A stretch of 64,000 nt of DNA from Petasospora fabianii (Eukaryota; Ascomycota; Saccharomycetes; Phaffomycetales; Wickerhamomycetaceae). The stretch is taken from contig CP048717.1 of the NCBI GenBank assembly GCA_022641835.1, positions 1,054,001-1,118,000 of the forward strand, read 5' to 3'. The notes under the pieces were generated by a model. That model did no database searches, was not told the DNA's origin, and saw only the letters and a list, made by a program, of their open reading frames with translations. A program made the position numbers and the translations under genes. Below are positions 11,537-43,743 of this stretch, piece after piece. Position 1 is the first letter of the stretch. The number at the start of each line of letters is the position of its first letter.

Positions 11537-11674
11537 CTAGCCACACACAAACAAACTCTTGACTAAACCTGAGAGCATATGTATATATAACTCTTTGTAA
11601 AAGCTAAGCGCCCTGCTCTGTTGTTGTTATTGTTTAAGTCGCGTCGTGTATTTTGTTTTCGAAGAGATGATGGT

Positions 11675-11732
11675 CACGTGATTATTCTCTTCATATCACG
11701 TGATATGAAAAAGAAAACGAATCACGTGACTC
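11675..11732. promoter_or_regulatory. Triple CACGTG (Cbf1-like) cluster upstream of HOM2
   Basis: Three CACGTG hexamers lie at 11675-11680, 11697-11702 and 11723-11728. Each is preceded by GT, AT or AT (RTCACGTG, the Cbf1 preference). The third overlaps a TGACTC (11727-11732). They sit about 150-205 bp upstream of the HOM2 ATG, in the divergent spacer shared with the unknown protein B gene. Cbf1 control of methionine-pathway genes is established in S. cerevisiae; its use here is inferred. A TTCGCGAA palindrome is at 11775-11782. Confidence 0.65.
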
Positions 11733-11809
11733 TCCACTGCATAATAACTTACGTCATCAACTGCTGGACAAAAATTCGCGAAACCCCCCGATCGACTTTT
11801 ATATCGATT

Positions 11810-11817
11810 TGAGTCAT
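11810..11817. promoter_or_regulatory. Gcn4/AP-1 site upstream of HOM2
   Basis: TGAGTCAT is a perfect Gcn4 site (reverse complement ATGACTCA). It lies 62 bp before the HOM2 ATG, and a GCN4 gene is encoded in this same window. HOM2-type genes are general-control targets in S. cerevisiae, so this fits. Its closeness to the ATG, downstream of a TATA-like stretch at about 11799-11805, is unusual. Confidence 0.6.
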
Positions 11818-11878
11818 CTCAAAAGACCATAGAACAACTCTTTAACTCATCTCCCTAAAGACAACATATAAAAAAAAA

Positions 11879-42238: not shown

Positions 42239-43102
42239 TTAATGCTGACCAAGTAAAGCTCTCAATCTTAAAACTTCAGCTTCCAACTCCTTGTTTCTAG
42301 AAACAAGATCATCAACTTTCTCCTCGAGTTGGTACATACGTTCCATCTTTCTAGCTCTAGAACGTCTAGCAGCTTCAGTGTTTCTAGCACGTTTAGCAGC
42401 AACAGGATCAGAGTTATCAACAACAATTGGAGTCAAAGGAGCAGTTCTTTGCTTTCTGTTATAAGCAGTAACACCAAATTCATCAACTTCATGGGTAGAA
42501 GAAGACAAACGTTTACCAGATGGTTGAGACAAGTCAGCCTCTGAGGAAGAACGTTTGGTGCCACAAGAAGCTGTCTCAAACAATGGTGAAGAGACAATAG
42601 ACTCTGGAGTTGGAGCAGAAGCAGAAGCGGAAGCAGTAGCTGTAGCTGTAGCAACTGGAGTTGGAATTGGAGCTGGCTTTTCCTCCTTAACAGGGATTTC
42701 CATCTCGCTTGGTTCAAATAGAGAAGTCCAGTTTGAAGAGTCAATTTCGACATCGTCAAACATTGGAGTTGATTCAACTAAAGATGGACTAAAGATGGAC
42801 TCAACAATAGAAGAGTGCAACTGAAGTGGAGTAACAGTACCAACGGAAGGACTCAACTCTGGAACTTCAAGCTTATCAAGACCAAGAGCTGGGAAATCAA
42901 TCTCCTCAGTCTTAACAAAGCGAGAAAAGACAGATTCACCAAGAACCTGTCTTGGTTTGGAGTTCATCTCCATAGTGGAGGAAGCGGTAAACATATTTTG
43001 GGACTCAGCAGCGGTATCAAACATTTCAAACAAAGTTGCAGTAGTAGAAGTAGAATCAGTGTAGTTTTTCATAGCAGTAGTAGCAGTAGTAGCAGTAGAC
43101 AT
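42239..43102 (-). CDS. GCN4: bZIP general-control activator GCN4
   Basis: This 287-residue transcriptional activator of amino-acid biosynthesis has a C-terminal DNA-binding domain almost identical to Gcn4. KRARNTEAARRSRARKMERM forms the basic region and a leucine zipper ends in LRLRALLGQH. An acidic activation region includes DDVEIDSSNWTSLFEPSEMEI, equivalent to the central acidic activation domain with its WTxLF-type motif. A Ser/Ala/Thr/Pro spacer follows, and a Thr-rich N-terminus precedes it. The phosphodegron-like TPLTP (before the bZIP) fits the rapid turnover known for Gcn4. The gene has a leader with six tiny uORFs, the hallmark of Gcn4 translational control. Confidence 0.97.
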   Translation of the reverse strand: MSTATTATTAMKNYTDSTSTTATLFEMFDTAAESQNMFTASSTMEMNSKPRQVLGESVFSRFVKTEEIDFPALGLDKLEVPELSPSVGTVTPLQLHSSIVESIFSPSLVESTPMFDDVEIDSSNWTSLFEPSEMEIPVKEEKPAPIPTPVATATATASASASAPTPESIVSSPLFETASCGTKRSSSEADLSQPSGKRLSSSTHEVDEFGVTAYNRKQRTAPLTPIVVDNSDPVAAKRARNTEAARRSRARKMERMYQLEEKVDDLVSRNKELEAEVLRLRALLGQH

Positions 43103-43161
43103 TTTCTTAATAAAATCTGGGATAGATATTGTAATATTGTTTTCTCAAAAGAAGGGGGCGA

Positions 43162-43416
43162 TTAGCGCGTCATGATGGACGGTAGTAGTATATTATTTCA
43201 CGGGGACATCTTGGAAGGGAAGTCGTTTTAAAAAACGGGTAGATAGAGATCTGGTGGGGATCTAATTTATTTCATTCTTTCATTCTTGGGGGAGAGATGG
43301 GGGTAGGGGACTCTTAAAGAGACTTTAGACAAACTTTTCTTTCACGGGCTCATGATTAATCGTTTGTTTTGTTATTACTGGGTGGACACACAGGGGGGAA
43401 TCGTTTAGAAGCACAT
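43162..43416 (-). promoter_or_regulatory. GCN4 leader with six mini-uORFs
   Basis: Read on the minus strand, every ATG between the TATA box and GCN4 opens a frame of only two or three codons. In 5'-to-3' order they are MCF (43405-43416), MSP (43342-43353), MKE (43272-43283), MK (43267-43275, overlapping the previous), MSP (43198-43209) and MTR (43162-43173). Both MSP frames end CCG-TGA. S. cerevisiae GCN4 has four such uORFs, of which the inhibitory 3 and 4 end in Pro CCG before the stop. The last stop lies about 59 nt before the GCN4 ATG, and none overlaps it. The arrangement implies reinitiation-based control by eIF2 phosphorylation. Confidence 0.85.
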
Positions 43417-43562
43417 CTTGACGTAGCGGTATAATTTGAACGAGATGTGAATTTGTAAACGGGTAGTGTATCGGCAGTAATTAGGAATGAAACTTGAAGA
43501 GAAAGAAGAAGAGAGGAAAAGGTGAATAGCCGCGCGGCTAATAAAAGGGCGGATTCTCTTGA

Positions 43563-43743
43563 TTATATACTTTTCGCGACAGCCGCCGCTGGTAAATTAA
43601 TAATTAAATAAAAAAAAAAAAAAAAAACTTAAATAATATGCGCGGGCCAATCAGATGCGACAACTGGGCGGGGATCACACATGGTAAGGGCCACTACACC
43701 TAAACACCTAAACACCAAAATAAAACCGTCACGAGTGACTCAT
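43563..43743. promoter_or_regulatory. GCN4 core promoter with Gcn4 site
   Basis: On the minus strand a TATATAA box lies at 43563-43569, 460 bp before the GCN4 ATG, with TTCGCGAC beside it (43573-43580). A poly-A tract at 43611-43627 and CTAAACACC repeats near 43699-43716 follow. TGACTCAT, a perfect Gcn4 site, is at 43736-43743, about 170 bp upstream of the TATA box. Transcriptional autoregulation is a possibility. Confidence 0.55.

Follow-up and report, generated by a model that had tools for sequence, protein, structure and literature searches.

Six minimal upstream open reading frames in the GCN4 leader of Petasospora fabianii: a probable case of delayed reinitiation with a layout unlike that of Saccharomyces cerevisiae

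The GCN4 leader is a textbook case of translational control by upstream open reading frames (uORFs), the rules of which come mainly from Saccharomyces cerevisiae. In the account given by PMC5972666, uORF1 of S. cerevisiae, backed by uORF2, keeps 40S subunits on the mRNA, and both of these uORFs have Cys as their last codon. uORFs 3 and 4, both of which end in CCG, remove the 40S subunits that have regained initiator tRNA; a preliminary description of the locus studied here had invoked this CCG rule correctly. Starvation slows the regaining of initiator tRNA, and some 40S subunits then arrive at GCN4 (PMC5972666). CCG is reported to lower reinitiation in S. cerevisiae (PMC5972666, PMC11375166).

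Multi-uORF GCN4 leaders are already known across the budding yeasts. A survey of 18 fungi reports that most hemiascomycete GCN4 leaders have conserved uORFs, that all four uORFs are conserved as far as Ashbya gossypii, except in K. lactis, and that homologues of uORFs 1, 2 and 4 are found as far as Yarrowia (PMC1964767). Three or more GCN4 uORFs are given for all hemiascomycetes in PMC4027193. The C. albicans GCN4 leader has three uORFs and is reported to act Gcn2-dependently (PMC5972666). Neurospora crassa cpc-1 has two, a short permissive uORF and a later inhibitory one, and depends on eIF2α (PMC5972666, PMC5487733).

The locus analyzed here lies in a 64,000-nt stretch of P. fabianii DNA (contig CP048717.1, positions 1,054,001 to 1,118,000; hereafter the window). 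The minus-strand ORF at 42239–43102 is, judged by its sequence, GCN4, as had been proposed. Its 287-residue product matches the bZIP families, and a search of solved structures returned GCN4 as the top match (2dgc, E 3.9e-18). A Cyberlindnera fabianii protein annotated as GCN4 (P0006, 159 aa) has two blocks that are identical to the window's GCN4 except for one residue. P0006 is without its N-terminus, an internal stretch and the end of the zipper, gaps that probably reflect a faulty gene model with falsely predicted introns. A second relative, P0001, is 99% identical to the protein here, with three substitutions and an N-terminal TAT repeat shorter by three residues. The repeat is encoded by an ACT/GCT triplet repeat at the start of GCN4 (MSTATTATTA; 43040–43099, minus strand), the length of which seems to differ among strains, given the shorter P0001 repeat. 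In all, 317 protein relatives were found, and the alignment took in 13 from the best 120 of the 317. No second GCN4-like protein was found in the 12.3-Mb genome at E 0.001, with five candidates scored.

The pathway partners on which GCN4-type control depends are also encoded. The C-terminal, anticodon-like domain of the Gcn2 kinase is found in a 1675-aa open frame of the genome. eIF2α is encoded with the segment LSELSRRRIRS, the serine of which is the phosphorylated residue (PMC5972666).

All minus-strand ATGs from 43700 down to 43103 were enumerated. The result is the six uORF starts and, beyond the TATA box, one further ATG at 43682. Every ATG on the GCN4 side of the TATA box opens a frame of only two or three codons. 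The enumeration bears out the positions and peptides of the preliminary description, along with its overlapping MKE and MK frames and the CCG-stop ends of both MSP frames. The features are collected in Table 1.

Table 1. Features of the GCN4 locus (positions in the window)
Feature	Position	Strand	Remarks
GCN4 coding sequence	42239–43102	minus	ORF, 287-aa bZIP activator; ATG at 43102–43100
uORF6, MTR-TAA	43162–43173	minus	ATG at 43173; 59 nt from stop to GCN4
uORF5, MSP, CCG-TGA	43198–43209	minus	ATG at 43209; 95 nt from stop to GCN4
uORF4, MK-TAA	43267–43275	minus	ATG at 43275; overlaps uORF3
uORF3, MKE-TGA	43272–43283	minus	ATG at 43283; stop overlaps uORF4 start
uORF2, MSP, CCG-TGA	43342–43353	minus	ATG at 43353; 51 nt past uORF1 stop
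uORF1, MCF-TAA	43405–43416	minus	ATG at 43416; A at −3
Predicted hairpin, four main helices	43374–43481	minus	uORF1 within the 3′ arm
CAAG behind CT-rich tract	43493–43496	minus	Candidate transcription start; leader of about 394 nt
TATA box, TATATAA	43563–43569	minus	Sole TATAWA match within 43103–43700
TGACTCA	43736–43742	.	Upstream of the GCN4 TATA box

Is such a cluster expected by chance? In 20,000 dinucleotide shuffles of 43103–43562, ATGs averaged 4.1, and 20% of the shuffles had six or more, so that the number of ATGs alone was rejected as a signal. The quality of the frames is another matter. None of the 20,000 shuffles had at least six frames of three codons or fewer, and none had two or more such frames ending in CCG; a single shuffle had at least six ATGs with A at −3 in every one, as is found at all six uORF starts here.

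The genomic control points the same way. It comprised 121 mechanically called, non-overlapping ORFs of at least 200 aa from 314 kb of the 12.3-Mb genome (250 kb plus the window), with the 461 nt upstream of each ORF standing in for the leader. Among these 121 genes, GCN4 alone has at least three upstream ATGs that all open frames of three codons or fewer (six of six). The next-highest counts of short frames are five, in one gene with 11 ATGs, and four, in six genes. A subset of 81 genes has no neighboring ORF of at least 200 aa inside the 461 nt. The 80 genes other than GCN4 in this subset have 442 upstream ATGs, of which 74 (17%) open frames of three codons or fewer and 122 (28%) have A at −3; at these rates, and assuming independence, the chance of six out of six is about 2e-5 for short frames and about 4e-4 for A at −3. 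Even when only two ATGs, all short, are asked for, GCN4 remains alone in the subset. For comparison, the main start has A at −3 in 59 of the 121 sampled genes. Among 88 frames of two or three codons that precede the other genes, one has CCG as its last codon, versus two of the six here; CCG makes up 346 of the 3332 proline codons in the sampled ORFs. As a cluster, the minimal uORFs go far beyond chance.

These figures bear on the proposal that the main transcript does not carry the uORFs, i.e., that it begins downstream of most of them and that the frames are incidental parts of the promoter. ATGs are indeed common in promoters, averaging 6.2 per 461 nt in the sampled genes, but the lengths, contexts and CCG ends of the uORFs are far from chance, and the sole TATAWA match of 43103–43700 sits at 43569, on the distal side of all six. 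We consider this proposal very improbable. The CAAG behind a CT-rich tract, a fungal promoter motif, marks a candidate transcription start. Farther upstream is TGACTCA, a perfect Gcn4 binding site by sequence; autoregulation of GCN4 through this site is possible.

Thus far, the locus has what is expected of a GCN4-type leader: a GCN4 orthologue as the main ORF, two or more short uORFs that do not overlap it and exceed chance, a late CCG-stop uORF (uORF5, and uORF2 as well), and the kinase and its target serine. S. cerevisiae shares the bZIP Gcn4 gene, the several two- or three-codon uORFs, two of them CCG-stop (PMC5972666), the encoded Gcn2 and eIF2α serine, and a uORF1 located about 300 nt or more upstream of the main ATG. 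Short uORFs upstream of GCN4 are likewise reported for other hemiascomycetes (PMC1964767), and multiple uORFs are shared with C. albicans. In N. crassa cpc-1, the inhibitory uORF is much longer, whereas the frames here are all of two or three codons.

The departures from S. cerevisiae lie in the number of uORFs, the order of their last codons and their spacing. There are six AUGs rather than four, although the MKE and MK overlap means that they make at most five separate uORF units; S. cerevisiae has no overlapping pair. From first to last, the uORFs end in Phe, Pro, Glu, Lys, Pro and Arg, in contrast to Cys, Cys, Pro and Pro. Cys-ending first uORFs are therefore absent, uORF1 ending in TTC and uORF2 in CCG, and the second place is held by a CCG-stop uORF where S. 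cerevisiae has a permissive one. The AU-rich stretch that follows uORF1 in S. cerevisiae and related species is also absent: the 12 nt after uORF1 here, ACGATTCCCCCC, are C-rich, with A/T at 4 of 12 positions. The 3′ flank of uORF6 is C-rich too. The last uORF ATG is 71 nt from the GCN4 ATG, versus about 150 nt in S. cerevisiae (PMC3201031). Cys ends and an AU-rich flank are marks of an S. cerevisiae-type uORF1, not of GCN4 leaders generally.

Two local details need comment. The stop of uORF3 and the start of uORF4 have two bases in common (ATGA), which looks like a stop-start site. The overlapping pair is contained in a tandem 8-nt repeat, GAATGAAA occurring twice; the overlap need not be a device and may be incidental. 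The other detail is the likeness of uORF2 and uORF5, which the preliminary description had called two duplicated CCG-type uORFs. Their Ser codons differ (AGC and TCC), and their flanks match over a 12-nt core only. Fourteen uORF pairs with 25-nt flanks were compared by local alignment, with 1000 shuffles each; the uORF5/uORF6 alignment is invalid because the two stretches overlap, which leaves 13 valid pairs. uORF2/uORF5 was the best of the 13, its core score being reached in 14 of 1000 shuffles, a result that fails correction for multiple tests. Duplication is accordingly not supported.

We regard translational control of GCN4 by delayed reinitiation as the best reading of this leader, and a likely one. 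It is taken as the mechanism here, where the S. cerevisiae components recur: very short uORFs with favorable start contexts, frames that end CCG-stop, Gcn2 and the eIF2α serine. The proposed sequence of events is as follows. Scanning ribosomes would initiate at uORF1, probably a reinitiation-permissive frame, and part of the 40S subunits would remain on the mRNA past its stop and continue along it with no initiator tRNA bound. When the cells are fed, the eIF2 ternary complex would be regained quickly, leading to capture at a later uORF. The CCG-stop uORF2 and uORF5 are the probable sinks for recharged ribosomes, uORF2 by analogy under the CCG rule and uORF5 probably as the main one; since ribosomes would be captured at later uORFs, GCN4 would not be made. 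Upon starvation, Gcn2 would phosphorylate eIF2α, ternary complex would become scarce, and some 40S subunits would skip every later uORF and recharge just before the GCN4 ATG. Most likely, then, the uORFs are decoy frames that keep GCN4 silent until amino acids run short.

The spacing of 195–231 nt from uORF1 to the last uORFs supports delayed reinitiation, as the value taken for S. cerevisiae, 200 nt, is similar. Several features weigh against it: uORF1 ends in Phe and is without an AU-rich 3′ flank, the second uORF is already of the inhibitory CCG type, and the uORF6 ATG is nearer to the GCN4 ATG than is the last uORF ATG of S. cerevisiae.

Two other mechanisms would also place the uORFs on the transcript. 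One is leaky scanning in the style of C. albicans, where uORF3 alone of the three is reported to suffice (PMC5972666). A single inhibitory uORF near GCN4 would then do the work, being bypassed when eIF2α is phosphorylated, and the others would be accessory; uORF5 and uORF6 are both near GCN4. Against this, all six have A at −3, so that no single uORF would be expected to be bypassed for want of a good context, and serial passage of five units would multiply the loss. The start contexts thus argue mildly against C. albicans-type leaky scanning, which we judge improbable. The other is constitutive damping, in which the uORFs would cut GCN4 output, possibly along with mRNA stability, and would not respond to starvation. 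Upstream ORFs do generally lower expression of the main ORF (PMC4027193), but the uniform minimal lengths and two CCG-stop ends are what reinitiation control would require, and the Gcn2 pathway is encoded in the genome. Damping of this kind appears very improbable.

Returning to delayed reinitiation, a two-step estimate of output was made by arithmetic with published S. cerevisiae rates for the ternary complex (0.046 and 0.0057 per nt; PMC3201031), applied to this leader. At these rates, the share of 40S subunits recharged on the way from uORF1 to uORF2 would be 90% when cells are fed and 25% when they starve. The derepressed output is estimated at 9% if uORF6 blocks and 15% if it does not, as compared with 18% for S. 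cerevisiae; that is, uORF6 as a block would about halve the derepressed output. In S. cerevisiae, a uORF added 100 nt past uORF4 is reported to halve GCN4 output (PMC3201031). For the derepressed state with n1 of 200 and n2 of 150, the simple form gives 18.4% and the published model 18.5%, the measured value being 27.9%. For the repressed state, the simple form gives 0.01%, the published model 0.012% and the measurement 2.8%; the repressed estimates are left unused because they are far below the measured value (all comparison values from PMC3201031).

Folding adds a lead concerning uORF1. The whole leader folds with z −3.48 (0 of 100 shuffles), and a hairpin is predicted around uORF1, pairing 10 of its 12 nt, the start and stop codons included. 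The hairpin has a free energy of −23.6 kcal/mol, where shuffles average −10.1 (z −5.2; 0 of 200 shuffles), and equal stability was reached in 1 of 5000 shuffles, for a window (43374–43481) that was picked after the leader had been folded and is the strongest fold of the leader windows compared. On a coarse grid, the upstream fold is more extreme in 5 of the 120 other genes, which makes the hairpin sixth of 121. The reverse strand of the hairpin also folds, at −26.8 kcal/mol, a value without a shuffle control. Rfam gave no match in 43000–43700 up to E 1. We treat the predicted hairpin as a lead only. Of the folded, reinitiation-promoting elements that may precede uORF1 in a GCN4-type leader, none was found wholly upstream of uORF1, 43417–43540 alone having z 0.77, which may weigh against delayed reinitiation. 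Two other folds came to light in the window. The GCN4 coding window 42861–42980 (minus strand) has z −4.98, about equal to the leader hairpin, and a divergent region at about 11537–11878, between two ORFs, has z −5.6 and −5.4, the two most extreme upstream folds of the 121 genes.

How new is this layout? The preliminary description had suggested a distinct wiring of general amino-acid control. By order and spacing of the uORFs this is possible, and the layout does differ from that of S. cerevisiae; differences among yeasts in uORF number and sequence are already described, however (PMC1964767 and PMC5972666). Orthologous leader DNA was not found, searches of viral and prokaryotic contig collections giving 38 and 30 matches, respectively, and no relatives. 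In one literature library, no earlier account of a Cyberlindnera or Wickerhamomyces GCN4 leader was found, and "six uORFs" or "five uORFs" for GCN4 was absent among the literature matches listed.

A naturally occurring leader whose uORFs differ in number, order and spacing offers a ready test of which rules are essential. The rules open to test are Cys-stop first, CCG-stop last, the AU-rich flank and about 150 nt to the main ATG. Two features fit the standard model worst: a CCG-stop uORF that already comes second, and a last uORF that ends 59 nt short of GCN4. The layout merits an experiment. A tentative elaboration, to which we give a rather low chance, is that capture is distributed: an early CCG-stop sink, 51 nt past uORF1, would meet most of the reinitiating ribosomes of fed cells and would be followed by backup sites (the overlapping pair, uORF5 and uORF6), with uORF1 situated in a hairpin that would open and re-close with the passage of ribosomes. 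If this were true, the switch would be tighter and of lower output than the two-plus-two design of S. cerevisiae, and this yeast lineage would have a regulatory logic of its own.
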